Source: Saccharibacillus brassicae (lineage in GTDB: Bacteria; Bacillota; Bacilli; Paenibacillales; Paenibacillaceae). Taken from it: DNA of 64,000 nt. The first letter of the stretch is position 1; every line of letters starts with the position of its first letter. The stretch is taken from contig NZ_CP041217.1 in the NCBI RefSeq assembly GCF_006542275.1, positions 3,271,501 through 3,335,500 of the forward strand, read 5' to 3'. A program made the position numbers and the translations under genes. Below the pieces are notes generated by a model that was not told where the DNA came from, ran no database searches, and worked only from the letters and a program-made list of their open reading frames with translations. Shown piece by piece: positions 1,985-38,272 of the stretch.

Positions 1985-2392
1985 ATGAAAGGCAGGATGA
2001 TGAAAAGGGGAGACTGGATTCTGATCGGAATCGTCGTGATCGCGGCGCTTGCGTTCATCGTTCCCCGGTATTGGGGCGGACATGAAAGTGAAAAAAATCA
2101 CATTGAAAAGCGCGTCGTGCATATCGAGGTGAACGGCGAAGCGTACCGGACGCTGCCGCTGACGGACGAGGAGCAGCTGCTCACGATCCGCACGGACGAA
2201 GGCTTCAACCAGATCAAGATTCACGACGGCGGCGTGGAGATGCTGGACGCGGATTGTCCGGACAAGCTGTGCCTGGGCTTTGGCTTCGTCACGCGGCCGG
2301 GACAGCAGATCGTATGCCTGCCGCACCGCGTGTCGGTGTTTATCGGGGTCGAATCGGGAGAGGAGCTGGAAGTCGATGACGTCGTTGGCTGA
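1985..2392 (+). CDS. eetA: NusG domain II membrane-anchored protein (EetA-like)
   Basis: The 135-residue protein has one N-terminal membrane segment (about residues 11-27) and then an extracytoplasmic NusG_II domain with the family signature D-C-P-D-K-x-C followed by G-Q-Q-I-V-C-L-P-H. Listeria EetA, a membrane component of flavin-based extracellular electron transfer, belongs to this family as I recall it. The next gene is the Gx transporter that pairs with it in such loci (EetB). The stop overlaps the next gene by 17 nt, so translational coupling is likely. The family assignment is firm; the role in electron transfer is inferred from context. Confidence 0.85.
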   Translation: MKGRMMKRGDWILIGIVVIAALAFIVPRYWGGHESEKNHIEKRVVHIEVNGEAYRTLPLTDEEQLLTIRTDEGFNQIKIHDGGVEMLDADCPDKLCLGFGFVTRPGQQIVCLPHRVSVFIGVESGEELEVDDVVG

Positions 2393-2930
2393 ACAATCTT
2401 TGCTTCTGAAAAAAACGGTGATCCTGGCGATTTTCGCGGCGGCTGCCGTCGTGCTGGGTATCGTCGAATCGCTGATCCCGCTCGGCAGCTTCATGGTGCC
2501 CGGCGCCAAGCTCGGCCTTGCGAACATCATGATTCTCACCTGCCTCTACTTTCTCGGCGGCAGGGACACGCTGATGCTGGTCGTGCTGAAGACGCTGCTG
2601 ACCGCGATGCTGCTGGGCACGTTCTCGATGCTGCTGTTCAGCCTGTTCGGCGCGGTGCTCAGCTTTGCCGTCATGTACGGACTGATGAAGGTCAGCCGCA
2701 AACGGCTCAGCCTGATCGGGATCAGCGTCGCGGGAGGGATCGCGCACAATATCGGGCAGCTCGGCGCGGCGGCGATCGTGATCGACTCGCTGAATATTTT
2801 CTACTATTTGCCGGTGCTTATGATCGCGGGCGTGGCGACGGGCATCGTCGTCGGCATCGCGGTCCGCTATCTGACAAACGCGCTGGGGCGGATGAAAATG
2901 TTCGCGCCGTTCGCGCCGGATACGTATTGA
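2376..2930 (+). CDS. eetB: Gx transporter family membrane protein (EetB-like)
   Basis: This 184-residue polytopic membrane protein belongs to the family often mislabelled heptaprenyl diphosphate synthase component I (Hpre_diP_synt_I). Its Gly-rich membrane motifs include VPGAKLGLANI and GGIAHNIGQL. I chose the ATG at 2376, inside the end of eetA, because GAGAGGAG lies about 8 nt upstream. The family resembles ECF substrate-binding membrane subunits, and the ECF ATPases and EcfT follow directly. In Listeria the homologue EetB works with EetA to pass electrons from the quinone pool to extracytosolic flavoproteins. That role is inferred here from gene content. Confidence 0.85.
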   Translation: MTSLAEQSLLLKKTVILAIFAAAAVVLGIVESLIPLGSFMVPGAKLGLANIMILTCLYFLGGRDTLMLVVLKTLLTAMLLGTFSMLLFSLFGAVLSFAVMYGLMKVSRKRLSLIGISVAGGIAHNIGQLGAAAIVIDSLNIFYYLPVLMIAGVATGIVVGIAVRYLTNALGRMKMFAPFAPDTY

Positions 2931-2968
2931 ACGCCGCCGCGGGAGCGCGGCAGGAAGGAGGCCAAGCC

Positions 2969-3799
2969 ATGCAACGGGAGACGGCGCCCGCGATCGAACT
3001 TCGGGAGGTCGCGTTCGCCTACACGGCCGAAGAGCCGGTGCTGCACAGCATCGACCTGCGCGCCGAGCGCGGCGAATGGATCGCGATCGTGGGAGCGAGC
3101 GGCTGCGGCAAATCGACGCTCGTCCGGCTGTTCAACGCGCTGCTCCAACCGCAAAGCGGCAGCGTGTCCGTGTTCGGCGAACCGCTGACGGAGCATAACG
3201 CGCCGCTTATGCGCGCCCGGATCGGGATGGTGTTCCAGAACCCGGACAACCAGTTTATCGGGGAGACGGTGGAAGAAGATCTGGCGTTCGGGCTGGAAGG
3301 ATTGTGCCTGGAGCGGGCGGAGATGGAGCGCCGCGTCGCGGAATACGCAGACAAGCTGCGGCTGTCGCCGCTGCTGGCGCGCCATCCGGGCGAGCTGTCC
3401 GGCGGTCAGATGCAGCGCTGCGCGGTCGCGGCGTGCCTGGCGATGGAGCCGGAGCTGCTCGTGTTCGACGAAGCGACGTCCATGCAGGACGAACGTTCGC
3501 GGCGCGAGCTGCTGACGGTCATGCGCGAGCTGAAGGCGCAGGGCACGTATACGATCTTTTCGGTGACGCACGACGTGGACGAGATGCGGGCGGCGGACCG
3601 GATCATCGCGCTGCAGGGCAGGACCATTCGCGCGGCTGCGGCGCCGGACGTTTTTTTCTCGGATGAGCGGCTGCTGCGGGACTGCGGGATCGAGCTGCCG
3701 TTTCGGCTGCGGCTGGACCTTCGGCTGGCGGAACTCGGTATAGACGCAGACCGGGAAATCGGTGCGGAAAAAGAAGGCGAAAGGAGGGATCGATCATGA
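2969..3799 (+). CDS. ecfA1: Energy-coupling factor transporter ATPase EcfA1
   Basis: A 276-residue ABC ATPase. Walker A is GASGCGKST, the Q-loop is in MVFQNPDNQF, the signature is LSGGQMQRCAVA, Walker B is LLVFDEAT and the switch His is in VTHD. The FQNPDNQF string is typical of ECF (CbiO/EcfA) ATPases. The start at 2969 is preceded by AAGGAGG. It overlaps ecfA2 by an ATGA junction and probably forms the EcfA1-EcfA2 heterodimer that drives vitamin (for example riboflavin) transport through EcfT and a separate S subunit. No S subunit is encoded in this window. Confidence 0.93.
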   Translation: MQRETAPAIELREVAFAYTAEEPVLHSIDLRAERGEWIAIVGASGCGKSTLVRLFNALLQPQSGSVSVFGEPLTEHNAPLMRARIGMVFQNPDNQFIGETVEEDLAFGLEGLCLERAEMERRVAEYADKLRLSPLLARHPGELSGGQMQRCAVAACLAMEPELLVFDEATSMQDERSRRELLTVMRELKAQGTYTIFSVTHDVDEMRAADRIIALQGRTIRAAAAPDVFFSDERLLRDCGIELPFRLRLDLRLAELGIDADREIGAEKEGERRDRS

Positions 3800-5184
3800 A
3801 GGCATGGATCAAACGGCAGGCCGGAGCGGCGGGTCGGATCGGAGCAGTGTGGACGGGCCGGGCTTCTGCGCGAAAAAAAGGCGGAGACGCCGGCGGCTTG
3901 GCCAAGCCTGCCGACTCGGCCCGGAGCCAAGCGACTACTGTTATGGAGGCGGCCTCTGGGGCAGCCGCGTCCGCACATTCGGCGCCGGTGACGGCGGCAG
4001 GATCGGCGGCGATGTTCGAATCGACATTGGCGTCGGCATCGGCGTCGGCAGTCCAATCGGCATCCGAATCGGCAGCGGCCGCGATATCCGGTTCTTCAAA
4101 GACTTCGCCGCCGGACCTTGTGATCGAGCTGCGGGACGCGGATTACGCCTATCAGGCGGGCACGCCGTTTGCGGCGGCGGCGCTGCACGGCGTGAACCTC
4201 CGCATCCGCCGCGGCACGCTTGTCGGCATCGCGGGCGGCACCGGCTCCGGCAAGTCGACGCTGCTGCAGCTGCTAAATGGCCTGCTGCTGCCGACCGGCG
4301 GTTCGGTCCGCGTGCTTGACCATACGCTGCTACCCGGCATGCGCCGGCCGAAGCTGAACGATTTGCGCCGGCGCGTCGGCCTTGCTTTTCAACTGCCGGA
4401 ACGGCATCTGTTCGAAGACACCGTCGAGAAAGACCTGATGTTCGGTCCGCTGAACTTCGGTCTGCCGAGCGCGCAGGCGCAGGCCCGGGCGGCGGAAGCG
4501 CTGCGTTCGATGCGGCTCGGCGACAACCTGCTGCCGCGGCATCCGCTGACGCTCAGCGGCGGGCAGATGCGCAAAGTCGCGATCGCTTCGGTGCTGGCGG
4601 CGCAGCCGGAGATCCTGATGCTCGACGAGCCGACCGCGACGCTCGATTCGGCGGCGCGCCGGGAATTGATCGGCACGCTGGCGAAGCTGTGCCGCGAAGA
4701 AGGGCGCACGATTCTGATGGTGACGCACCGGATCGAGGAGCTGATGGAAGTCGCGGACGAATGGATCATTATGCACGAAGGGCGCGCCGTGTTCCGGGGC
4801 GACGCGGACGAGCTCGGCGACCGGCAGGGCGAACTGGAAGGATGGGGCGTGGCGGTGCCGGAGCCGCTGTCGTGCTGGGCGGAATGGACGTCCCGCCTGC
4901 CGCAGCTGGCGGCGCTGCCGATGCCCCGCACGGCGGAAGAGATGGCGCTGCGGATCGCCGAAGCGGTGAGCGCTTCGGGCTGCGTGGCGGCGGCCGATAG
5001 AGCGAACAAGGGGTTGGCGGAAAGTGAAGCCGCGTATCCGCGAAGCGGAAGTTCCGGGGCGAAGCGGCCCATGCCGCCGGAATCGGCTGATCCTGCCGAT
5101 CCCGGCAATCGCGTCGATCCCACCGATCCCACCGATCCCACCGATCCCGCCGAGAGGAGCCTGCGCGTATGCGTGACAAACTGA
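3796..5184 (+). CDS. ecfA2: Energy-coupling factor transporter ATPase EcfA2, with unusual extensions
   Basis: The core ABC ATPase runs from about residue 107 to 390. It has Walker A GGTGSGKST, Q-loop FQLPERHLFEDTV (typical of EcfA2), signature LSGGQMRKVAIA, Walker B ILMLDEPT and a switch His in VTHR. At 462 residues it is far longer than the usual 280-290. The first ~105 residues are an Ala/Ser-rich low-complexity tail, and the last ~70 are another, ending in DPTDPTDPTDP encoded by tandem GATCCCACC units. The ATGA overlap with ecfA1 supports the start at 3796, though internal Met codons at 3942 and 4012 are possible. Its 3' end overlaps ecfT by 16 nt, so the tail is constrained by the neighbouring reading frame. 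Confidence 0.9.
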   Translation: MKAWIKRQAGAAGRIGAVWTGRASARKKGGDAGGLAKPADSARSQATTVMEAASGAAASAHSAPVTAAGSAAMFESTLASASASAVQSASESAAAAISGSSKTSPPDLVIELRDADYAYQAGTPFAAAALHGVNLRIRRGTLVGIAGGTGSGKSTLLQLLNGLLLPTGGSVRVLDHTLLPGMRRPKLNDLRRRVGLAFQLPERHLFEDTVEKDLMFGPLNFGLPSAQAQARAAEALRSMRLGDNLLPRHPLTLSGGQMRKVAIASVLAAQPEILMLDEPTATLDSAARRELIGTLAKLCREEGRTILMVTHRIEELMEVADEWIIMHEGRAVFRGDADELGDRQGELEGWGVAVPEPLSCWAEWTSRLPQLAALPMPRTAEEMALRIAEAVSASGCVAAADRANKGLAESEAAYPRSGSSGAKRPMPPESADPADPGNRVDPTDPTDPTDPAERSLRVCVTN

Positions 5185-6005
5185 TTCTGGGGCGCATGAT
5201 TCCGACCGGTTCGCCGGTGCACGGTCTCGATCCGCGCGCGAAGATCGCGGCGATGCTGCTGTTCACGGCGGCGCTCGTGCTGTCGGACGGCTGGCCGGCG
5301 CTTGCGCTGCTTGCGCCCTGCGCCGCGGCGGTGCTGGCCGCGACGAAGATTCCGCCGCGTACGTATGCGCGGGCGCTGCGTCCGCTGCGCTGGCTGATGC
5401 TGTTCGTCTTCTTGTTCCAGCTGCTCGGCGGAGCGGGAAGCGGCTCGGCGGAACTGCCTGCGGCGGGCGGCGGAGCCTGGGAATGGACGCTCGGTCCGGT
5501 CACGCTGACCGCGGCCGCCGTGTCCGGCGCGCTGCTTGCGGTATGCCGCATGGCGCTGCTGATTCTGTTCACGTCGCTGCTGACGTTCACGACGACGCCG
5601 TCAATGCTCAGCCGGGGCGTCGAAGGGCTGATCAAGCCGCTTGCCCGCCGGGGAACGGGAGCGGAGCGGTTCGCGCTCATGCTGCGGCTTGCGCTGCGCT
5701 TCATTCCGGCCCTGCTGGAAGAAGCGCAGACCATTCTCAAAGCGCAGGCGGCGCGCGGCGCGGACTACGAAGAGATGAACATGCGATCCAAAGCGCGCCT
5801 GCTGCTCTCGCTGCTCGTGCCGGTCACCGTCGGCGCGTTCCGGCGGGCGGAAGAGCTGACGACGTCGCTCGAAGCGCGCGGCTACCGGATCGGGGCGCCG
5901 CGCACGGCTTACCGGCCGCTGGCCTGGCGCGGCGCGGACACGGGATTCATGCTGCTGTTCGTGCTGCTGCCGATCGGAACGCTGCTGCTGCGGCTGGCCG
6001 CCTGA
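5169..6005 (+). CDS. ecfT: ECF transporter transmembrane subunit EcfT
   Basis: This 278-residue polytopic membrane protein carries the two A-R-G motifs of EcfT coupling helices, in QAARGADYEE and LEARGYRIG, which contact the two ATPases. The N-terminus contains the typical HGLDPRAK string. The start lies 16 nt inside ecfA2 after GAGAGGAG, so the three ECF genes are translationally coupled. As a group II ECF module it could serve several S subunits. Beside eetA/eetB, flavin transport or trafficking is the likeliest task, but the substrate cannot be read from these genes. Confidence 0.92.
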   Translation: MRDKLILGRMIPTGSPVHGLDPRAKIAAMLLFTAALVLSDGWPALALLAPCAAAVLAATKIPPRTYARALRPLRWLMLFVFLFQLLGGAGSGSAELPAAGGGAWEWTLGPVTLTAAAVSGALLAVCRMALLILFTSLLTFTTTPSMLSRGVEGLIKPLARRGTGAERFALMLRLALRFIPALLEEAQTILKAQAARGADYEEMNMRSKARLLLSLLVPVTVGAFRRAEELTTSLEARGYRIGAPRTAYRPLAWRGADTGFMLLFVLLPIGTLLLRLAA

Positions 6006-6120
6006 TCACGCCGCTGCTCCAAAGAATTCTTTTGACGCATACGGACTTGAACTTGAATGTGAACTTGGACTTGAACAGGTAAACGGCACGGCTGCAAGCA
6101 TACAAAAGGGGGAAACACAT

Positions 6121-8220
6121 ATGGCACGTTATTTTCAGGGAAGAGAAGTCGAACTGCTCGCTCCGGTCGGCACGTTCGACATTTTCGGGACGGTTATTCG
6201 GGCGAACTGCGACGCGGTCTATTTCGGCGGTCCCGGACTCAATATGCGCATGATGCGCAAAGGCTACAATTTTAGCCGGGAAGACATCGTCGAAGCGGTC
6301 AACGTCGCGCACGGACTCGGCAAAAAAGCGTACGTCACCGTCAACAACATGCTGAGCGAGAGCGACGTATCGGAAGCGGGCGACTATCTCGCTTTTCTGG
6401 ACCGGTCCGGCGTCGACGCGATCATCGCGCAGGATCTGGCGGTTCCGTCGCTGCTGCGCGAACAGGGACTTGCGCTGCCGGTGCACGCTTCCGTCATGCT
6501 CAACGTACATAACGTCGAGATGGTGCGCGCCCTGCAGGAGTTCGGCGTAACGCGGGTCGTGACGTCGCGGGAGATGGATCTGCGCACGGCGCGGATCATC
6601 GAGGAGCAGACGGGCATCGAGATCGAATATTTCGTCCACGGCGATATGTGTTCGGTGCACGGCGCCAACTGCTACATCAGCTCGCACCTGTTCGGAATGA
6701 GCGGCAACCGGGGCAAATGCCTCAAGCCGTGCCGCTGGGATTACCGCATGAAAAAAGACGGCTACGTCTACAGCACCCCTTATCCGCTGGCGGCCAAAGA
6801 CATGAACATGTACGAACATCTGCCGGAACTGATCGACGCGCACGTCACTTCGTTCAAGATCGAAGGCCGCATGCGCGACAAAGAGTTTATCTCGGCGCTC
6901 GTCAACAGCTACGGCGACGCGATCGACCGCTATCTCGATGATCCGGTCGGTTTCGACCGCGGCACGGACAGCGAGGAGCTGCACAAAAACCGCAAGCGCG
7001 ATTTCTCCACGGCGTACGCGTTCGGCCGGCCGGGACTGTCCAACATCAACCGGCGCTACGAAGGTACGGGCAAATTTTACAGTACGGGCAAAGTGTTCAG
7101 CACGCCGACGGCGGAGCGCGAGAGCAGCGAATCGGCGGTGCGTGCGGTGCGGGAAGGACTGCGGCAAGCATCCGGGGAAAAAGCGGCCGGCGCCGCGCCA
7201 GCCCCTGCGCCGCAGCGCAGCGCGCCCAAGCTGACCGTTCGGGTCAACAATATGGAGCAGGCCCGGGCGGCGCTCGAAGCGGGCGTGGACGAGCTGTTCC
7301 TGTCGGGCGACGTACTGCTGCCGGACCGCGCGTTCGGCCGCCGGCAGATCGAGCAGCTGGCGCAGCTCAAAGGAAATACGCGGCTCGTGCTGGCCACGCC
7401 GCGCATGATGGACGAGATGCAGTTCGAGCAGTACGAGACGCTGCTGTCCGGCGGCGTGACGGGACTGGACGCGCTGCTGGTGACGAATATCGGGGCGGTC
7501 CGCCGCTTCCGGAACTTCGGCCTCCCGCTGATCGGCGACCTGTCGCTGAATCTGTACAATCATATGGCCGAGCGGATGTACCGCGAGCTGGGCGTGGAAC
7601 GGCTGACCGCTTCGATCGAAGCGAACCTGCCGGATCTGGCCGCGCTGCTGGGCCGGACGAACGGAGAGCTTGAGCTGACCGTGCACGGAACGCCGGTCGT
7701 CATGTACATGGAACACGATCTGTACGAAAATACGGAAGTCTACGAGCCGATCGCCGAAGAAAGCAACCGTTACGTGCGCGACGACGTGCTCGTGCTGATG
7801 ACGGACAAAGGCGAAAGCCCGGTCTACAAAGACGTCCACGGCCGCTGCCATCTGACGACGTCCAAAGAACTTTGCCTGCTGCCGCTCGTCGGCGAGCTGA
7901 TGGAGGCGGGCATCACGCATTTTCGCGTTGAAGGTTCGACGTATGCGCCGGAACGGCTCGGCGAGCTGCTGGGCTTGTATCGCTTGGCGCTGAACGAGCC
8001 GGAGCGGGCGGCCGATCTTGCCGAACGCTTGGAGCCGGCTTTTGCCGGCTTTACGCTGGGTGCGCTCGCTTTCGGCCGCGCGGACCGCAGCACGCCGGCC
8101 GACCGGCCGGCGGCTCTGGAGGCGGACAACGGCGAAGCCGCGGCAGACGGCGGCGAAGGACAGTCCGAACAGGGCGAAGCGGCAGATGTTCAAGCGGCGC
8201 TTCAGACAACGAAAGGGTGA
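6121..8220 (+). CDS. Peptidase U32 family protein
   Basis: The 699-residue protein has the U32 signature in EYFVHGDMCSVHGANCYIS and conserved Cys in GKCLKPCRWDY. The family comprises collagenase-like putative proteases; several members are now known to support RNA modification (TrhP-type tRNA hydroxylation). The N-terminal half is the U32 core (about residues 10-300). The middle carries a second TIM-barrel-like region typical of the longer family members. The last ~45 residues are a low-complexity Ala/Glu tail. AAAGGGGG precedes the ATG. A 115-nt gap from ecfT contains repeated CTTGAAC units but no clear terminator, so read-through from the upstream operon is plausible. Confidence 0.88.
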   Translation: MARYFQGREVELLAPVGTFDIFGTVIRANCDAVYFGGPGLNMRMMRKGYNFSREDIVEAVNVAHGLGKKAYVTVNNMLSESDVSEAGDYLAFLDRSGVDAIIAQDLAVPSLLREQGLALPVHASVMLNVHNVEMVRALQEFGVTRVVTSREMDLRTARIIEEQTGIEIEYFVHGDMCSVHGANCYISSHLFGMSGNRGKCLKPCRWDYRMKKDGYVYSTPYPLAAKDMNMYEHLPELIDAHVTSFKIEGRMRDKEFISALVNSYGDAIDRYLDDPVGFDRGTDSEELHKNRKRDFSTAYAFGRPGLSNINRRYEGTGKFYSTGKVFSTPTAERESSESAVRAVREGLRQASGEKAAGAAPAPAPQRSAPKLTVRVNNMEQARAALEAGVDELFLSGDVLLPDRAFGRRQIEQLAQLKGNTRLVLATPRMMDEMQFEQYETLLSGGVTGLDALLVTNIGAVRRFRNFGLPLIGDLSLNLYNHMAERMYRELGVERLTASIEANLPDLAALLGRTNGELELTVHGTPVVMYMEHDLYENTEVYEPIAEESNRYVRDDVLVLMTDKGESPVYKDVHGRCHLTTSKELCLLPLVGELMEAGITHFRVEGSTYAPERLGELLGLYRLALNEPERAADLAERLEPAFAGFTLGALAFGRADRSTPADRPAALEADNGEAAADGGEGQSEQGEAADVQAALQTTKG

Positions 8221-8225
8221 GCGGG

Positions 8226-9641
8226 ATGGAGGGACACGAAGTGGGCGAAACGGGATCGGGAACGAGAATCGAAGCGGATGCGGGCAGCATCCCGAGTGCC
8301 GGGCGGCCGACGCTGACGGCGCAGGAAGTGATCGCGCTGCGCAAAGCGCATTTCTTCCCGTGCACGCAGCATTTCTACCGCAATCCGCCGGTGCTGGTCT
8401 CGGGCTCGATGCAGCGAGTGACGGACAGCGAAGGCCGCGTGTATACCGACTTTTTCGCGGGCGTATCGGTCGTGGCGAGCGGCCACTGCAATCCGGCGAT
8501 CACCAAAGCGACGGTGCGGCAGACGCGCACGCTTCAGCATACGACGACGATCTATCTGACCGAACCGTCCGCGCGGTTGGCGCAGCGGATGGCCGGGCTG
8601 CTGCCGGCGTATCCGAAAGTCTTTTTTTGCAACAGCGGGTCCGAAGCGAACGAAGGCGCGCTGATGCTGGCCCGCCGCCATACGAAGCGCAAAGGCTTCA
8701 TCGCGCTGACCGAATCGCTGCACGGCCGCACGGCGCTGACGATGAGCGTGACCGGGTTATCGATGTGGCGGGGCGATCCGTTCCCGGACGAGGACGTCCA
8801 TTTTATTCCCCGCCCGTATGCATACGGCGTGCCGGCGCAGGAAGCGGCGGAGCTGTCGCTGAACGCGCTGCGCGGCGTGCTTCAGAGCGCCGGCGACCGG
8901 ATTGCGGCGATGATCGTCGAGCCGATCCAGGGCAACGGCGGGATGGTCGTCATGCCGGACGGGTATCTGGCCCGCGCCAAAAAGCTGCTGGACGAACACG
9001 GCGTGCTGCTGATCGCCGACGAGATCCAGACCGGCTTCGGCCGGACGGGCGCGCTGCTCTGCTCCGATCAGCTCGGCGTGCAGGCCGATATCGTCACGCT
9101 GGCCAAAGCGCTCGGCGGCGGCATCCCGATCGGCGCGTTCGCGGCGACGGAATCCGTCGCCGCTTCGCTCGATACGCCGTCGGCGTCGACGTTCGGCGGC
9201 AATCCGGTCTCGGCCGGGACGGCGCTGGCCGTCCTCGATTACGTCGAATCGCAGCGGCTGCCGGAACGCGCAGCGCGTCTCGGGACGGCGCTGAAGCTCG
9301 GGCTGGAGAGGATGCGGGCGTTCTATCCGCGCATCCTCTCGGAAGTGCGCGGCCTCGGCCTGATGCTGGGCGCGGAACTGCACGCGGACGAGCCGTCGCT
9401 CGGCGCGGCCGCGGTTGACCGGGTGCTGGAAGAGATGAAGGACCGGGGCTTCCTGATCGGCAAAAACGGCGTGGCCCGCAACGTGCTGGCGTTCCAGCCG
9501 CCGCTCGTAATCGACGCTTCGGACATCGAAGCGATGCTGGAACAGCTGGACGCGGTACTCGGCGGCCTGGAGCAGGATCGTCTCCGCGCCGAGGAACCAT
9601 CCGTGCCGGCCGATTTCCCAAGCGGGGCAGAAGCGCCATGA
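8226..9641 (+). CDS. Class III PLP-dependent aminotransferase
   Basis: A fold-type I, class III (acetylornithine/4-aminobutyrate type) aminotransferase of about 471 residues. The PLP lysine lies in VTLAKALGGG, the class signature is LLIADEIQTGFGRTG, and the phosphate-binding region includes CNSGSEANEGA. I chose the ATG at 8226; a GTG at 8217 overlapping the upstream stop and a GTG at 8241 are alternatives. AAAGGGTGA is well spaced for 8226. The substrate cannot be told. It lies between the U32 gene and the prenyltransferase gene, with only a short overlap or gap on either side, so it is cotranscribed with them. Confidence 0.88.
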   Translation: MEGHEVGETGSGTRIEADAGSIPSAGRPTLTAQEVIALRKAHFFPCTQHFYRNPPVLVSGSMQRVTDSEGRVYTDFFAGVSVVASGHCNPAITKATVRQTRTLQHTTTIYLTEPSARLAQRMAGLLPAYPKVFFCNSGSEANEGALMLARRHTKRKGFIALTESLHGRTALTMSVTGLSMWRGDPFPDEDVHFIPRPYAYGVPAQEAAELSLNALRGVLQSAGDRIAAMIVEPIQGNGGMVVMPDGYLARAKKLLDEHGVLLIADEIQTGFGRTGALLCSDQLGVQADIVTLAKALGGGIPIGAFAATESVAASLDTPSASTFGGNPVSAGTALAVLDYVESQRLPERAARLGTALKLGLERMRAFYPRILSEVRGLGLMLGAELHADEPSLGAAAVDRVLEEMKDRGFLIGKNGVARNVLAFQPPLVIDASDIEAMLEQLDAVLGGLEQDRLRAEEPSVPADFPSGAEAP

Positions 9642-10516
9642 GCGCGGCTTTGCGCAGCGCGCTGACCAAGACGCGCGATTTCGGATCGCTGGTCATGTTC
9701 TCGCACACGCTGTTCTCGCTGCCGTTCGCGATTATCTCGATCGTCTGGGCGGCCGGCGGCCTGCCGGACTGGCGCGTCGTGCTCGCTTCGCTTCTGGCGC
9801 TGGTCGCCGCCCGCAACGGCGCCAACGCGTTCAACCGGTTGGCCGACCGGGAGTTCGACGCGGCCAATCCGCGCACCGCGCATCGCCATCTGCCGCAGAA
9901 GCGGCTCGGCGTGCGGGAAGTATGGATCTTCGTCATCGTCAACTACGCGATCTTCGTCGCGGCGGCCGGCATGCTGAACCCGCTGTGCCTGATCCTGTCG
10001 CCGGTCGCGATCTTCCTCATCTCTTCGTATTCGTACACGAAGCGCTTCACCTGGCTCAGCCATCTGTATCTGGGCTTTACGATCGCGTCGGCGCCGATCG
10101 GCGCCTGGTTCGCCGTGACCGGCACGTTCGCGTTCACCCCGTTCGTGCTCGGTACGATCGTCATGCTGTGGATCGGCGGGTTCGATATTTTGTACGGCAC
10201 GCAGGACATCGACTTCGACCGCGCGCACGGGCTGCATTCCATCCCGAGCGCATTCGGCCTGAAGCCGGCGCTGTACATTTCGCGCTTCCTGCATCTCGTC
10301 ATGGTCGGACTGCTGCTGTTCCTGTTCTTTTTCCGCGATCTCGGCGCTTGGTACCTGATCGGTATCGGGCTGGCGGGGTTTCTGCTCCTGCTGGAACACG
10401 GCATCGTGAAGCCGCATAACCGCCGGCTCATGCAGATCGCTTCGTACAATCTGAACCAAGTGATCAGCCTGCTGATCCTGTCGTTTACGATGCTGGATTA
10501 TTTCTGGATGATCTGA
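9638..10516 (+). CDS. UbiA-family prenyltransferase (quinone synthesis, DmkA/MqnP-like)
   Basis: A 292-residue polytopic membrane prenyltransferase. Two Asp-rich active-site motifs are visible: N-x-x-N-R-x-x-D-R-x-x-D in NAFNRLADREFD, and D-x-x-x-D in GTQDIDFDRAHGLHS. It belongs to the UbiA-like group used in menaquinone or demethylmenaquinone synthesis. The partner enzymes that make the heptaprenyl chain are encoded just downstream on the other strand. In Listeria a dedicated prenyltransferase (DmkA) supplies demethylmenaquinone for extracellular electron transfer; whether this one serves that branch or general menaquinone is open. It overlaps the aminotransferase gene by 4 nt. Confidence 0.88.
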   Translation: MSAALRSALTKTRDFGSLVMFSHTLFSLPFAIISIVWAAGGLPDWRVVLASLLALVAARNGANAFNRLADREFDAANPRTAHRHLPQKRLGVREVWIFVIVNYAIFVAAAGMLNPLCLILSPVAIFLISSYSYTKRFTWLSHLYLGFTIASAPIGAWFAVTGTFAFTPFVLGTIVMLWIGGFDILYGTQDIDFDRAHGLHSIPSAFGLKPALYISRFLHLVMVGLLLFLFFFRDLGAWYLIGIGLAGFLLLLEHGIVKPHNRRLMQIASYNLNQVISLLILSFTMLDYFWMI

Positions 10517-10590
10517 AAAAAGCAGCTTCAAGCACCGACGGTTTCCGTTGGACTCCCCGGCCTCTGCCTATGCGCCCTGCCTGCACACAC

Positions 10591-10627
10591 GAAAAACCCG
10601 ACTCTTCGGAAAAGAGTCGGGTTTTTC
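10591..10627. terminator. Bidirectional rho-independent terminator
   Basis: AAAAACCCGACTCTT and AAGAGTCGGGTTTTT form a perfect stem around a 4-nt loop. It serves the ubiA operon on the plus strand and the UPF0303 gene on the minus strand. Confidence 0.93.
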
Positions 10628-10683
10628 GATGCGTCTGGAGTTTGAGGCGCGGCGACGGCCGATCACACGCTGCGATGCTGCGA

Positions 10684-11166
10684 TCAGCCCTGCTGCTCGG
10701 CCAAAAAGCGGCGGATGCCGGAAGTCACGAGATCGTGATCTTCCTGGTCCGGCAGGCCGGATACGGTAATCGTGCCGATCAGCCCTTCGCCGGCCAGCAT
10801 GAGCGGGAACGCGCCGCCGGCCAGCACGTATTCGTCGTCGCTCAAGCCGTAGTCGCCCGCAAGCGTTTGGTTTTCGCTGCGAAGCTGGAGTGCCGCATGC
10901 CAGGAACTTTTGACGAAACGGGCCACCGTATTGTTTTTGCGGCGAATCCAGTCTTCGTTTTCCGGCGAAGTGCCTTCCATCGCGTGCAGGAACAGCCGGT
11001 GGCCTTGGCGGGTAATATCGACGGTCACCTTTTTGCCGGTCCGGCGGGCTTCCTCGATCAGGGTCAGTCCGAGCGCGAGAGCGGTCTCGGCGTCGAACGA
11101 AACGAAACGCAGTTCTTGTTCTTCCTGCCGCATTTGCGACAGCTTTGTTTCGGGAGTGACGGACAT
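10684..11166 (-). CDS. UPF0303 / heme-degrading-domain (HbpS-like) protein
   Basis: A 160-residue cytosolic protein of the HbpS-like (DUF336) family. Recognisable parts are VSFDAETALALGLTLIEEA near the N-terminus and the Gly-rich GDYGLSDDEYVLAGGAFPL in the C-terminal half. Members bind heme or small cofactors, and most have no proven reaction. The ATG at 11166 follows AAAGGAGAT; an in-frame upstream start lacks such a site. It ends against the terminator shared with the ubiA operon. Confidence 0.82.
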   Translation of the reverse strand: MSVTPETKLSQMRQEEQELRFVSFDAETALALGLTLIEEARRTGKKVTVDITRQGHRLFLHAMEGTSPENEDWIRRKNNTVARFVKSSWHAALQLRSENQTLAGDYGLSDDEYVLAGGAFPLMLAGEGLIGTITVSGLPDQEDHDLVTSGIRRFLAEQQG

Positions 11167-11254
11167 GGGGCGAATATCTCCTTTGTCGGGGGCGTGAATG
11201 CCCGGGTAGTGGAATGCATTCATTTCGACGCCGGGCCGCCTTTTTCCTCTTGTC

Positions 11255-12235
11255 CTAAAATTTCCGTCCGCCGAAATAGTCGGCCAGCTTCAGCAGATCG
11301 GCCGAAGCGGCGTATTCGCCGAGCGAACGGGCGATCTCGCAGGCTCGCTCAAGCTCCTGCGCGCCGAAGCTTTCCGCGCGTTCCAGGGCTCCGCTGCTGC
11401 GGATCTTGTCCAGCAGCGGAGCGATCAGGGCCGGATCGGTATCCCGGCCGACGCTGCGGATCTCCGCCGCGAGCGCGGGATCTTCGAGCGCGTACAACAC
11501 GGGCAGCGTCACCTGCCCGCCGAGCAGGTCGCTTCCCGCCGGCTTGCCGAGCTGCCGGGACGAAGCCGTCAAATCGAGCAGGTCGTCCCGGATCTGGAAC
11601 GACAAGCCCAGATGCTCGCCGAACGCATGCAGCCTGCGGCAGATCTCTTCCGGCGCCCCGGCGGCGCGGGCGCCGAATTCCAGCGAGACGGCCATCAGAT
11701 GGGCGGTCTTGCGGCGGGACTTGGACAAATACTCGTCCAGCCCGAGATCGTAATCGTATGCGTGTTCGAGCTGCTCGTATTCGCCGAGGCACAGTTCGGC
11801 CGTCGCGAACGACGCGAAGCTTGGCCGGTCCGCGCCGGCTTTGCCGTCGGCCTGGGCCATCAGCTCGACGACGCGGGCCGACATATAGCTTCCGACGTAC
11901 AGCGCTTTGGCCGGCCCGATCCGCGTATGCAGCGCGGGTTCGCCCCGCCGCAGCGCCGAACGGTCGATCAGGTCGTCGTGAATGAGCGAAGCGGTATGGA
12001 TAAATTCCGCCGCGGCCGCCAGCTGGAACAGGCGGGGATCGTCGGCGCGTTTGCCGAAGCGGCCGCCGACGAGGACGAGCATCGGCCGCAGCCGCTTGCC
12101 TCCGGCGTCGATCGTGCGCAGCAGCGCGTCGGCCAGCTCGGAGCTGGGCGGAAGGTCTTTGTCGCTTTTGACGATGCGCTTCATCTCCCGTTCGATGCGG
12201 CGCAGGTCGATTCGCAGAGCGTCAGGCAGGTTCAT
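11255..12235 (-). CDS. hepT: Polyprenyl (heptaprenyl) diphosphate synthase catalytic subunit
   Basis: A 326-residue trans-isoprenyl diphosphate synthase. It has the substrate-binding GGKRLRP motif, the first Asp-rich motif in IHDDLID and the second in QIRDDLLDLTA. It elongates farnesyl diphosphate with isopentenyl diphosphate to the C35 side chain of menaquinone. The ATG at 12235 follows AAGGAGG and lies 14 nt inside the upstream hepS gene. The usual menG between hepS and hepT is absent. With the UbiA gene it provides the quinone part of the electron-transfer set; a DmkB role is equally possible. Confidence 0.9.
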   Translation of the reverse strand: MNLPDALRIDLRRIEREMKRIVKSDKDLPPSSELADALLRTIDAGGKRLRPMLVLVGGRFGKRADDPRLFQLAAAAEFIHTASLIHDDLIDRSALRRGEPALHTRIGPAKALYVGSYMSARVVELMAQADGKAGADRPSFASFATAELCLGEYEQLEHAYDYDLGLDEYLSKSRRKTAHLMAVSLEFGARAAGAPEEICRRLHAFGEHLGLSFQIRDDLLDLTASSRQLGKPAGSDLLGGQVTLPVLYALEDPALAAEIRSVGRDTDPALIAPLLDKIRSSGALERAESFGAQELERACEIARSLGEYAASADLLKLADYFGGRKF

Positions 12236-12668
12236 GCGGCCCGGCCTCCTTCGCGTCCGCCAGCGCCCGCTCGAAAGCGGGCAGCAGGGCGATCTCCGCG
12301 CTTCGGCCGAGCGCGCGGGCGATCTGGACTTTTTTGACGAACGGGGCAAGTCCGCGCAGCAGCGATTCTTCCCGGCATTTCAGCGCGTATTGGACGTACA
12401 GGCTGTACAAATAGTCGCCGTCCAGAATGCGCCGCGTCAACTGCGGATCGTCCAGCCGAATCGGTTCGGCGTGGCGGGCGAGCGCGGCATCGAGCAGCGC
12501 ATAGACGGCAAGCAGGCCGGGCTGCCGAAGCGGTTCCACGGCGCAGCGTTCGAACGCGGCCAGCGCGGCGTTCAGCGCCGCCCGGTCCGGCGCGAGCCGG
12601 ATACGCGTAACCGGATCGATCTCGGCCTGCAGGCGTTCCAGCGTTTCCCGGATTATTGTGTCGTTCAT
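12222..12668 (-). CDS. hepS: Heptaprenyl diphosphate synthase component 1
   Basis: A 148-residue non-catalytic partner subunit (HEPPP_synt_1 family), recognised by GDYLYSLYVQYALK and by its position directly before hepT, with which it overlaps. HepS forms a heterodimer with HepT and sets chain length. It is shorter than the ~250-residue Bacillus protein, so it may be a reduced version. AAGGGGTG precedes the ATG. Confidence 0.82.
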   Translation of the reverse strand: MNDTIIRETLERLQAEIDPVTRIRLAPDRAALNAALAAFERCAVEPLRQPGLLAVYALLDAALARHAEPIRLDDPQLTRRILDGDYLYSLYVQYALKCREESLLRGLAPFVKKVQIARALGRSAEIALLPAFERALADAKEAGPHEPA

Positions 12669-12780
12669 TGAAGCACCCCTTGACGGACTAACAAAATACC
12701 GAATCGGCGTACATACCGTATTCACTCGGATTCCTCCACATTATGAGTCAAATTCGTTCATTATGCAAAACGGCGAATCG

Positions 12781-12824
12781 AAAAAAGCGGGGCCATGTGC
12801 GGGGTAAGCTGCACATGACCCCGC
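12781..12824 (-). terminator. Terminator of the pplA-ndh2 unit
   Basis: On the minus strand GGGGTCATGTGC pairs with GCACATGGCCCC (one wobble) and is followed by CTTTTTTC. It lies about 20 nt after the NADH dehydrogenase stop. Confidence 0.85.
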
Positions 12825-12844
12825 CGCAGCGCAGAGCCGGTCGG

Positions 12845-14719
12845 TCAGTCGGTATAGAGGTACCAGCGCTTGGCAAACCAGGTTTTTTTCCAGTGTTTCT
12901 TGAGCCAAGGCAGGACGTAATAGTCGAGTCCGAAGATGCTGCCCGAACCGCCGATAAGGGCGAATGCGGCGAACCAGTACCACCACATATCGGTCGGCGC
13001 CATGCCGGACGACCAGATCATCAGGCCCATGCCGATCGTGGCGATCGAAGCGATGGCCGAGAACAGGCCGACGATCAGCAGGATGCCGAATACGATTTCC
13101 GCGGCGACCATGCCGATTTGGAAAGCGGTCGCCAGCCACGTGTAGCCGCCGTCGCCGGTGTAGAACATCAGATCCATCATCGAGCTGACCATGTCCGAGA
13201 CGAAGCCCGGCACAGGGATGGCCTGCACGGCCTGACCGGCGTTTTCGACCGCGGAAGCGGCCGCCTGGGCATCGACCGCCGTCGCCACGTTGCCGACCGC
13301 TTCGGAAGCGGCACTGACGACGTCGGCATGCGGATCGGGCGGGATGAGGAAAATATGGTTCGGGTCGGCCACGACTTTTTGCAGCTTGTCCCAGCCTTCA
13401 TGCAGCCACATCCAGCCGACGAACACGCGCAGCGGCACGAGCCAGAAGTTCGGCGAGCGCTTCGAGAAGTGTCCGCCGAGGAACGTCCGGCGATCGTGGG
13501 CATGGAAAATCTCGTGCATAAGATACGTCCACACTTTATTGAAGCCGAGCACGGTGAACAGGTACAGCACGTTGATCGCGTGTTTGGCGAACATCGCGAA
13601 AAATCCGGTCAGCGAGAAAAATTTGCCCGGCAGACCTACGCTCGCGACGCCGTACCGGCTGCCGATCGACACCATCATGCCGTGAAAAGCCGGTTTGTAC
13701 GATTTTTTCGTGCCGCCTTTGATATCGGCCGTAATGTTGTGCGCGATCAGCGGAGCGGCATGTTCGGCGTTCTCGACCATCTGCGGAACCGGGCGTTCTT
13801 CGCCTTCCGGAATGAAGAAGATGTTGTCGCCGACGACATACACGTTTTCGTGATCGAGGCTTTGCAGCTTGTCGTTCGTTTCGATGCGCTTGCGGCCTTT
13901 TTGCTGCACATCGAGCTTGTCGAGAATATCTGCGCCTTCGACGCCGGCTGTCCAGATGACCGTCCGCGCCGTCAGCTTCTGGCCGCTGAGGTCCACGCCG
14001 GTGTCGGAGACACCCGTAATCGGTTTGCCGGTAATGATCTCGACATCGAGCTTTTTAAGATACCGTTCGGATTTGGCGATCAATTTCTCCGGCAGCAGCG
14101 GCAGGATTTTCGGAGCCATATCGGCTACGATCATGCGCACTTCGGACGGATCGATATAAAATTCCCGGCACAGTTCGCTGCGGTATTCGGCCATTTCGCC
14201 GATCAATTCGACGCCCGTGAAGCCCGCGCCGACGACGACAAACGACAGTTTCTCCCGGCGGATCGCCGGATCTTTTTCCTGCGACGCTTCGGTGAACATC
14301 CGGCGGAACCGGTCTTTGAGTCTGACCGCATCGTCGTAGGACCAGAGCGTGTAGCTGTGTTCCTGCGCGCCGGGGATGCCGAAGAACGTCGGCTTGGAGC
14401 CGGTCCCGATCACGAGGTAATCGTAAGCGTAGGACGCCTGCTGTCCCTGGAGCGAGCGGGATTCGAAGTCGATGCCGCCGATCTCGTCGAGCACGACGTC
14501 AACTTTGAGGCCGGCAAAAATCTTTTTCAATTCGATTTTGACCGCGTCTTCCGGCGTCCGGTTCGCGGCCACCTCGTGCAGTTCGGTCAGCAGCGTGTGG
14601 TAAGGATTGCGATCGATCAGCTGGATCTGGACATCGGTATTTTTTTTGAAGTTTTTGGCTAATTTCTTCGCCGTCAGGACGCCGCCGTAGCCACCGCCGA
14701 GAATTACTATTTTTGTCAT
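12845..14719 (-). CDS. ndh2: Type II NADH dehydrogenase fused to a DoxX-like membrane domain (Ndh2)
   Basis: A 624-residue flavoprotein. The N-terminal ~410 residues form an NDH-2: FAD-binding GGGYGG at residues 8-13, NAD-binding VVVGAGFTGVE, and the second FAD motif NVYVVGDNIF. NDH-2 oxidises NADH and reduces quinone without pumping protons. The C-terminal ~200 residues add several membrane helices, with WLHEGWDKLQ and FALIGGSGSIFGLDYY resembling DoxX proteins. Ordinary NDH-2 proteins are about 400 residues. Listeria Ndh2, the dedicated entry enzyme of extracellular electron transfer, has the same kind of membrane tail. The start at 14719 is followed directly by KIVILGGG; an ATG at 14740 is possible. 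It lies downstream of the PplA-like gene in the same direction. Confidence 0.92.
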   Translation of the reverse strand: MTKIVILGGGYGGVLTAKKLAKNFKKNTDVQIQLIDRNPYHTLLTELHEVAANRTPEDAVKIELKKIFAGLKVDVVLDEIGGIDFESRSLQGQQASYAYDYLVIGTGSKPTFFGIPGAQEHSYTLWSYDDAVRLKDRFRRMFTEASQEKDPAIRREKLSFVVVGAGFTGVELIGEMAEYRSELCREFYIDPSEVRMIVADMAPKILPLLPEKLIAKSERYLKKLDVEIITGKPITGVSDTGVDLSGQKLTARTVIWTAGVEGADILDKLDVQQKGRKRIETNDKLQSLDHENVYVVGDNIFFIPEGEERPVPQMVENAEHAAPLIAHNITADIKGGTKKSYKPAFHGMMVSIGSRYGVASVGLPGKFFSLTGFFAMFAKHAINVLYLFTVLGFNKVWTYLMHEIFHAHDRRTFLGGHFSKRSPNFWLVPLRVFVGWMWLHEGWDKLQKVVADPNHIFLIPPDPHADVVSAASEAVGNVATAVDAQAAASAVENAGQAVQAIPVPGFVSDMVSSMMDLMFYTGDGGYTWLATAFQIGMVAAEIVFGILLIVGLFSAIASIATIGMGLMIWSSGMAPTDMWWYWFAAFALIGGSGSIFGLDYYVLPWLKKHWKKTWFAKRWYLYTD

Positions 14720-14867
14720 CGGGTCAACCAACCTTTCCATTGACGGTGTTCGCATGCCTGCCGGGTCCGCCGAACGATGCGGGGATCGGGCAGGCAGCGG
14801 TCCGCCCGTTGCTTCAAGTTAAGAGTGAGAGTGGAACGGGTCCGTGCCGCTGCCGGGCAGCGGCGGC

Positions 14868-15779
14868 TTATTTCGCGTCCGCCAGCGCCTGTTCGGCCAG
14901 CTTGAGATAGGAGGCGACATGGATCGTCACGCCGCTGATCGCGTCGGTCGTTCCGTCTTCCTTCGTTTCGACCGCCGCCGGATCTTGTTTTTCGATCACG
15001 TACTGCTCGGCTTTTTCCGCTTCTTCATGCCATTCCGCTTGGGCGCCGCCGGCTTTCATGCCGTACTTGCCTTCTCTGGAATTCGTTTTCTTGTCTTCGC
15101 CGGCCGCATTGCTGCCGCTGAAGTTGATCGCCACGATGCGTCCGGCCGCTACCGTCGCGTCCACGGTTTCTTTCCAGCCGCTTTCGGTATCGAAATCGGC
15201 CGCTTCCGCGTGATACGCGCCGTCCTTGTACGGGCCGGCTTCGACCGGGCCTGCCGCAAGAGCGGTCTCCGCAAGCTTCGTGAAATCGTTCACGTGGATA
15301 GACACGCCGGATACGACGTCGGTATGGCCTTCGGCATCGGTCGTGATCGCCGCCGGGTCCTGCTTGTCGATCAGGAACTGTTCGATTTTCTCCGCTTGTT
15401 CATGCCATTCGGACGAAGCGCCGCCGGCTTTCATGCCGTACTTGCCGGCTTCGGACGTCGCCTTCTTGTCCGGACCGCCGTTGAGGCTGGATGCGCTCCA
15501 GTCGGCGTCGGCAATTTTGCCGCCTGTCACCTGCAGGATCACGTACGGCTGCCAGCCGGATTCCTTGTCCATGTCCCCCTGGGCAAAGTACAGGCCGTCT
15601 TTCCATTGGGAAGCGTCGGCCGCCGTCTCAGCCGCCGGTGCCGCCGCAGCCTCTTTCGCCGGTTCGGCCTGCGCCGCCGGTTCGGCTGTGACCTCGGCCG
15701 TTTCATTGCTTCCGCATGCCGAGAGCGCTCCTGCGAGAAGAACGCCGCACATCCATACGGCCCCGTGCTTTTTGTTCAT
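14868..15779 (-). CDS. pplA: Lipoprotein with two FMN-binding repeats (PplA-like)
   Basis: A 303-residue lipoprotein with lipobox L-S-A-C (Cys22). An Ala/Glu-rich linker is followed by two homologous repeats (about 58-175 and 183-300). Each contains GW-x(n)-KYGMKAGGA, E-W-H-E, and ends in a flavinylation-like motif: SGVS with Ser160 and SGVT with Thr285. In FMN-bind domains an ApbE-type transferase attaches FMN to the last Ser/Thr of such a motif. Listeria PplA, the terminal extracellular flavoprotein of FLEET, also has two such domains and a similar length. Both motifs carry Val where the consensus has Ala. No ApbE gene lies in the window. The gene sits just upstream of ndh2, and a Rex/Fnr-like palindrome is about 180 bp upstream. 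Confidence 0.88.
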   Translation of the reverse strand: MNKKHGAVWMCGVLLAGALSACGSNETAEVTAEPAAQAEPAKEAAAAPAAETAADASQWKDGLYFAQGDMDKESGWQPYVILQVTGGKIADADWSASSLNGGPDKKATSEAGKYGMKAGGASSEWHEQAEKIEQFLIDKQDPAAITTDAEGHTDVVSGVSIHVNDFTKLAETALAAGPVEAGPYKDGAYHAEAADFDTESGWKETVDATVAAGRIVAINFSGSNAAGEDKKTNSREGKYGMKAGGAQAEWHEEAEKAEQYVIEKQDPAAVETKEDGTTDAISGVTIHVASYLKLAEQALADAK

Positions 15780-37205: not shown

Positions 37206-37234
37206 TTTTCATTCCGGCGGATTCGGAGTATACT
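37206..37234 (+). promoter_or_regulatory. Promoter of the xpt-pbuX leader
   Basis: TTTTCA (37206) and TATACT (37229) are spaced by 17 bp. Transcription would start near 37241, just before the aptamer. Confidence 0.55.
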
Positions 37235-37250
37235 TCAAACATTATTTCAT

Positions 37251-38272
<1,022 letters not shown>

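Follow-up and report, generated by a model that had tools for sequence, protein, structure and literature searches.

Research on how Gram-positive bacteria pass electrons out of the cell has mostly been confined to the flavin-mediated route known as FLEET (PMC9769522). Two further reports describe systems close to the one treated here: Paenibacillus sp. Cedars, in which iron reduction was observed and FLEET genes occur with ecfA1-ecfA2-ecfT in one operon (PMC10373932), and the eetB clusters of Firmicutes, in 3,328 of which eetA adjoins eetB, eetB-ECF (energy-coupling factor) operons being known more widely (PMC9973259). The present report concerns a related locus of Saccharibacillus brassicae (Paenibacillaceae), at positions 1985-15779 of a 64,000-nucleotide stretch, here called the window, of the single 5.62-Mb contig of its genome (NZ_CP041217.1). 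The locus probably encodes a variant FLEET pathway whose quinone branch runs via a cassette of three genes, for a U32-family protein, a class-III aminotransferase and a UbiA/MqnP-like prenyltransferase, in place of a MenA-type DmkB. The DmkB of Listeria is of the MenA type, and this usual quinone-carrier gene seems to have been replaced here by the cassette. A system of this kind is already known; the quinone branch and a variant, SGV[ST], of the flavinylation motif of the lipoprotein PplA are its new part, and on these two grounds the locus is regarded as a new variant. Its parts, all intact frames in two converging units, are the following (window coordinates):

1985..2392, + strand: eetA, encoding a NusG_II protein (PF07009, 94 bits)
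2376..2930, + strand: eetB, ECF S-type subunit and proposed FAD exporter (PF07456, 148 bits; predicted model)
2927..3799, + strand: ecfA1 ATPase (best match NCBIfam ECF_ATPase_1, 283 bits, under the cut-off of 315)
3796..5184, + strand: ecfA2 ATPase, long extensions at both ends (ECF_ATPase_2, 285 bits across residues 110-367, under the cut-off of 330)
5169..6005, + strand: ecfT transmembrane subunit, putatively in the FmnA role (PF02361, 118 bits)
6121..8220, + strand: U32-family protein, cassette gene 1 (PF01136, 294 bits)
8217..9641, + strand: class-III aminotransferase, cassette gene 2 (PF00202, 327 bits)
9638..10516, + strand: second UbiA/MqnP-like prenyltransferase, cassette gene 3 (PF01040, 189 bits; TIGR01475, 278 bits)
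10684..11223, - strand: HbpS-like gene downstream of hepT (PF03928)
11255..12235, - strand: second hepT, polyprenyl diphosphate synthase, putatively in the DmkA role (PF00348, 202 bits)
12222..12725, - strand: hepS-like small subunit, a remote assignment (from its orthologues, its position and a distant profile match)
12845..14755, - strand: ndh2, type II NADH dehydrogenase with a hydrophobic C-terminal tail (PF07992, 124 bits)
14868..15779, - strand: pplA, lipoprotein with two FMN-binding repeats (lipo_FMN_PplA, 58 bits; solved structure 2kzx, E 2e-32)

The + unit runs eetA-eetB-ecfA1-ecfA2-ecfT-U32-aminotransferase-ubiA and the - unit pplA-ndh2-hepS-like-hepT-HbpS-like. From eetA to ecfT, consecutive frames overlap by 17, 4, 4 and 16 bp in turn; a gap of 115 bp separates ecfT from the U32 gene, and both junctions within the cassette (U32/aminotransferase and aminotransferase/ubiA) are overlaps of 4 bp. 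The original prediction, made from the letters of the window, had read these genes as a nearly complete FLEET module, with eetAB, a full ECF operon and a prenyltransferase facing hepS/hepT and pplA-ndh2. The profile matches listed above bear out its EetA, EetB, EcfA1/EcfA2/EcfT, NDH-2 with a membrane tail and two-repeat FMN-binding lipoprotein, and the facing arrangement is as described, although the ECF operon, presented as a departure, is not new in view of Cedars and the wider eetB-ECF operons. The prediction had overlooked the U32, aminotransferase and HbpS-like genes, the first two being the most distinctive part of the locus, and its frame starts had to be moved to near 2376 for eetB and near 12235 for hepT. 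Its UbiA prenyltransferase is present, though not of the MenA type found in some relatives' loci, and of its two heptaprenyl diphosphate synthase subunits HepT is confirmed by Pfam, whereas HepS is a remote assignment.

The cassette closely accompanies PplA. In a survey of 295 genomes of the family, PplA was found in 111, window-type UbiA and U32 in 108 each and the aminotransferase in 107; UbiA and U32 occurred together in 107 genomes, and one genome each had either alone. Window-type UbiA was present in 105 of the 111 PplA genomes versus 3 of the 184 others, and U32 in 106/111 versus 2/184. ApbE was detected in 211 genomes at E 1e-10, 114 of these at E 1e-80 or better. At the stricter cut-off, which was picked after inspection of the table, it was present in 110/111 PplA genomes and 4/184 others, a contrast that is weaker at plain E 1e-10 (110/111 versus 101/184). 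The Fisher p-values of the co-occurrences (<1e-67) ignore shared ancestry, so that a comparison within the genus Saccharibacillus is fairer: eight of its 16 genomes have PplA, all eight with strong ApbE, U32, aminotransferase and UbiA, and the remaining eight show no PplA, U32, aminotransferase or UbiA at the thresholds, ApbE being present only in G007 (E 1e-51).

The original prediction had proposed comparing gene order in other Paenibacillaceae as a check. Of 20 loci from relatives, 18, including all seven from Saccharibacillus, have the pplA unit oriented towards the ecf or cassette unit. Since PplA is 50-79% and Ndh2 59-94% identical in the relatives' loci, and the facing units are so widely kept, the locus is not a product of chance. 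In the two exceptions, both units lie on one strand (L055) or the pplA unit alone is seen (L057). Many loci have the cassette between hepT and ecfT. Of six PplA genomes without window-type UbiA, four (G016, G017, G052 and G072) carry a MenA-type gene next to ecfT, and the loci of the other two, G010 and G288, the latter with U32, end at contig ends. In 26 genomes having window-type UbiA, the stretches read contain no MenA-type gene; these genes were sought in stretches from 32 genomes, some of which cover the locus in part. The alternation of MenA-type gene and cassette at one slot points to the substitution of one gene set for the other. Six genomes (G216, G245, G226, G082, G230 and G265) have pplA to apbE in one place, with neither cassette nor MenA-type gene there; their cassette lies 3.2 Mb off in G265 and on a different contig in the other five. 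Thus, linkage alone is not enough to explain the co-occurrence.

Two loci contain the cassette alone, with no ecf or pplA gene within 10-kb flanks (L080, 6495-10870, Paenibacillus faecalis; L081, 6529-10861, P. dakarensis); P. faecalis has its pplA locus elsewhere, as L111. In L106 (9919-11097), L107 (10177-11373) and L110 (8906-10123), related proteins with an N-terminal hydrophobic stretch and CGxC are encoded between hepT and ecfT, and the cassette is located elsewhere than this locus.

The host appears to be of the futalosine type. An MqnA-family gene (PF02621) lies at about 193 kb of the genome, beside another UbiA and HepS-/HepT-like genes, and there are two matches to the MqnC model; the UbiA, HepT and HepS of the window are therefore second copies. 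With the copies beside mqnA, the window UbiA shares 43% and the window HepT 35% identity, while the hepS-like protein has no Pfam match and aligns with the HepS beside mqnA at an hhalign E of 0.00086 (probability 23%). A genome-wide search for the UbiA family, made in this genome, returned three genes, the third of which, at 1.61 Mb, we take from its sequence to be heme O synthase. The window UbiA scores 278 bits against TIGR01475 (cut-off 180.8) and 267 bits against the MqnP model (cut-off 430); the copy beside mqnA likewise passes the broader TIGR01475 and falls below the MqnP cut-off, with 321 bits. Against the MenA-type genes of relatives, the window UbiA gave only insignificant matches (E 0.028 and 0.40). 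A MenA-type DmkB is thus lacking in the window, and the locus is classed as a FLEET variant. MenD was found in two of the 295 genomes, G017 and G185, and MqnC in 195 of the 197 genomes surveyed for it, missing exactly in these two; 193 of the 197 were above the curated cut-off, and G104 and G173 had weaker matches (about 1e-107). G017 is among the genomes with a MenA-type gene.

The U32-family protein has 699 residues and two U32 stretches. Its cysteines C177, C184, C200 and C204, spaced CX6CX15CX3C, are conserved in all 19 rows of an alignment of the window protein and 18 proteins from 27 matches, duplicates and short rows having been dropped. A four-cysteine pattern CX6CX15CX3/4C is reported for most U32 families and taken as the sign of a [4Fe-4S] cluster, the quinone hydroxylases UbiU and UbiV having different spacings. 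The protein scores 131 bits against UbiU (cut-off 440) and 152 bits against TrhP, a tRNA hydroxylase and the best-scoring named U32 model (cut-off 534), and is consequently assigned to neither. A search by sequence found no solved U32 relative at E 0.01, and the predicted model has a mean pLDDT of 53.7. In G136, G186 and G208, the U32 match comes in two pieces inside one frame of 750-878 residues, resembling an insert. Acetylornithine-type enzymes are the closest to the aminotransferase.

PplA matches lipo_FMN_PplA of NCBIfam over residues 16-297 (E 8e-16, against a cut-off of 325 bits), and the match to 2kzx falls in repeat 2; against Pfam FMN_bind (PF04205) it scores 16 bits, below the cut-off of 22. 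Repeat 2 also exceeds the Pfam HutF_N cut-off (27.9 versus 25 bits), which is probably a misleading match. The protein has a lipobox and the motifs DVVSGVS and DAISGVT, in which the Asp and Ser/Thr of D-x-x-[S/T]-G-A-[S/T] are kept and Val stands for Ala in both repeats. The family motif is mostly SGV[ST] rather than SGA[ST]. Among 38 rows (the window protein and 37 distinct rows from 57 matches, without duplicates and short rows), repeat 1 has Val for the canonical Ala in all 38; of the 37 rows that possess repeat 2, 28 have Val there and 9 have Ala. No aligned motif lacks the Asp, and the Ser/Thr acceptor is missing from a single repeat 1, whose row, by inference L013, reads DVVSGVP and has lost the flavin-acceptor residue of that repeat. 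Group g6 includes 14 genomes whose PplA match spans one repeat only.

The original prediction had noted that ApbE/FmnB and a riboflavin S subunit were not in the window and had called for a search of the rest of the genome. This revealed a single ApbE at position 4178904, unlinked and about 0.9 Mb from pplA, with the lipobox LGGC. Its nearest solved structures are PDB entries 7esa to 7f39 (E 3e-71), and 7F39 is Listeria FmnB according to a review. The original prediction had itself named the lack of any ApbE homologue in the genome as a ground for refutation; the argument that there is no ApbE and hence no FLEET is thereby refuted, and with every part type but a MenA-type DmkB present, and strong ApbE in nearly every PplA genome, we infer that the genes belong to a FLEET pathway. 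No other FMN_bind protein was found in the genome at E up to 0.1. In several relatives (e.g. L055, L056, L058, L068-L072, L074 and L106-L111), apbE lies divergently beside eetA/eetB, and the unlinked apbE of Saccharibacillus may result from rearrangement or replacement of a linked gene.

The predicted model of EetB, built from seven input sequences (pLDDT 82.7), retrieved the riboflavin S subunit TmRibU at ranks 1-4 and other ECF S subunits through rank 11, with a TM score of 0.67 by query and 0.72 by target at rank 1 and a best E of 0.0097, no match reaching 0.001 or better. This agrees with the published EetB result (PMC9973259). The EetB S subunit, ECF-T and ECF-A subunits are all encoded in the + unit, and as the genome has five CbiQ-family genes, window ecfT included, the EetB operon has its own T subunit beside four others. 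The ecfA2 frame has about 100 extra residues ahead of the ATPase domain and a long tail, those read in relatives being of about 280-320 residues. The genome search for a RibU-like protein revealed an ECF S subunit of the riboflavin type (PF07155, E 6e-51) at about 50 kb, beside other ECF genes. According to the same source, Listeria RibU is dispensable once flavin auxotrophy is relieved and EetB is the S subunit of FAD export (PMC9973259); a riboflavin S subunit is thus unnecessary for the export step, and RibU was set aside as a missing part. Ndh2 matches solved NDH-2 structures at E down to 2e-70, and its C-terminal hydrophobic stretches start at residues 540 and 559.

From these parts we infer each enzymatic step and each electron transfer of the pathway. 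Ndh2 would oxidize NADH and reduce a membrane quinone, from which electrons would pass to FMN on the surface lipoprotein PplA and finally to an outside acceptor such as ferric iron or free flavins. EcfA1/EcfA2/EcfT and EetB would together export FAD, and the unlinked lipoprotein ApbE, in the FmnB role, would use it to attach FMN to PplA. The pathway quinone would be made with the second HepS/HepT pair, for the side chain, and the second UbiA, the cassette presumably standing in for the MenA-type DmkB of some relatives. A possible role of the U32 protein is to hydroxylate this quinone without the need for oxygen. A more specific reading, which we regard as possible but doubtful, is that the cassette produces a new quinone reserved for extracellular electron transfer, its redox potential tuned for PplA; HepS/HepT and UbiA would then prenylate a ring, supplied by the futalosine pathway or otherwise, which the U32 protein would hydroxylate and the aminotransferase aminate.

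Several observations weigh against a variant FLEET pathway of this kind. The p-values of the co-occurrences take no account of shared ancestry. Window-type UbiA and strong ApbE also occur without detected PplA in G086, G128 and G150. In G086 and G128, no other locus part was seen near apbE, eetB and ndh2 not having been searched genome-wide there; in G150, UbiA occupies the slot and the remaining locus is retained, but U32, aminotransferase and detected pplA are missing. The futalosine pathway accounts only in part for where the cassette occurs, since G016, G052 and G072 have MqnC and a MenA-type gene without MenD; the swap is thus not simply pathway-following. In its cysteine spacing the U32 protein resembles most U32 families and not UbiU or UbiV, which lowers the probability of a new quinone in particular. 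In PplA, Val replaces the consensus Ala, a change that gave about 50% flavinylation in another protein according to a review. Moreover, in Lactiplantibacillus plantarum dmkA and dmkB were reportedly not needed for current, and their loss cut iron reduction slightly with 1,4-dihydroxy-2-naphthoic acid (DHNA) supplied, so a dedicated quinone may be optional.

Some of these points would also be expected if the FLEET core were real and the cassette served another purpose, such as extra ordinary menaquinone or RNA hydroxylation, and were merely kept by the same lineages. The cassette without detected PplA in G086 and G128, its isolated position in L080 and L081, the TrhP-leaning score of the U32 protein and the current retained by L. 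plantarum dmk mutants all fit such a purpose. We nevertheless consider it unlikely, as window-type UbiA follows PplA across the family, unlinked cases included, the same slot alternates with a MenA-type gene, 4-bp overlaps tie the cassette genes to ubiA, and the species of L080 has a pplA locus after all. It is far less probable that the locus is an ordinary FLEET in which the second UbiA and HepS/HepT duplicate housekeeping menaquinone genes and the U32 protein and aminotransferase are passengers; the identity of the window UbiA to the copy beside mqnA and the retention of UbiA alone in G150 speak for this, but U32 and window-type UbiA are almost never found apart, and their order and overlaps are conserved. 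Equally improbable is that SGV[ST] is not flavinylated, so that PplA would export few or no electrons and have another role. The prevalence of Val, the halved flavinylation seen elsewhere and the Pro at the repeat 1 acceptor position of one row point that way, whereas the Asp is invariant, the acceptor is lost only in that row, strong ApbE is present in nearly every PplA genome, and no other FMN_bind protein was detected in this one at E up to 0.1. The variant FLEET pathway with a cassette-based quinone branch is therefore preferred.

Two other features were considered and rejected as parts of this pathway. The HbpS-like gene is not a core part, since among the loci read it is present in Saccharibacillus loci only. 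An RNA regulator was likewise sought, and Rfam at gathering scores gave none within the electron-transfer locus; the sole match in the window at such scores is a purine riboswitch at 37234-37333 on the + strand (67 bits).

To our knowledge, the quinone used by FLEET in vivo is unsettled. The alternation of MenA-type gene and cassette within one family offers a genetic handle on it, since three genes can be named for deletion with an altered quinone as the expected effect, and a U32 protein and an aminotransferase may find their place in the cassette. On the more specific reading of a new quinone, the change from MenA-type DmkB to cassette would be a replacement by unrelated genes at one FLEET step, accompanied by a natural SGV[ST] motif. 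Flavinylated proteins have been searched for by the [S/T]GA[S/T] motif and PF04205, and the present motif suggests that such searches miss or underscore an entire family of PplA proteins.

In the open-access literature, no publication was found on a U32-aminotransferase-UbiA cassette and no paper joining futalosine with eetB, and for Saccharibacillus with iron reduction only work on barley soil matched. The U32 protein shares with UbiU/UbiV, TrhP and RlhA the U32 domain and with most U32 families the CX6CX15CX3C pattern, but it lies far below the UbiU and TrhP cut-offs, has a spacing other than that of UbiU/UbiV and is 699 residues long. The report on Firmicutes eetB clusters mentions, in its available portion, neither the cassette nor Paenibacillaceae (PMC9973259). 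Paenibacillus sp. Cedars belongs by name to the same family-level lineage and likewise combines FLEET with ecfA1-ecfA2-ecfT in one operon; there, however, the operon comprises seven of the eight genes, with dmkA located separately (PMC10373932). With the FLEET of Listeria monocytogenes, the locus shares PplA, Ndh2, EetA, EetB, ECF-T, a polyprenyl diphosphate synthase and an ApbE nearest to FmnB. Unlike Listeria, S. brassicae has the ECF ATPases in the same operon, two converging units and an unlinked ApbE, a UbiA/MqnP-like cassette rather than a MenA-type DmkB, and the SGV[ST] motif in PplA.

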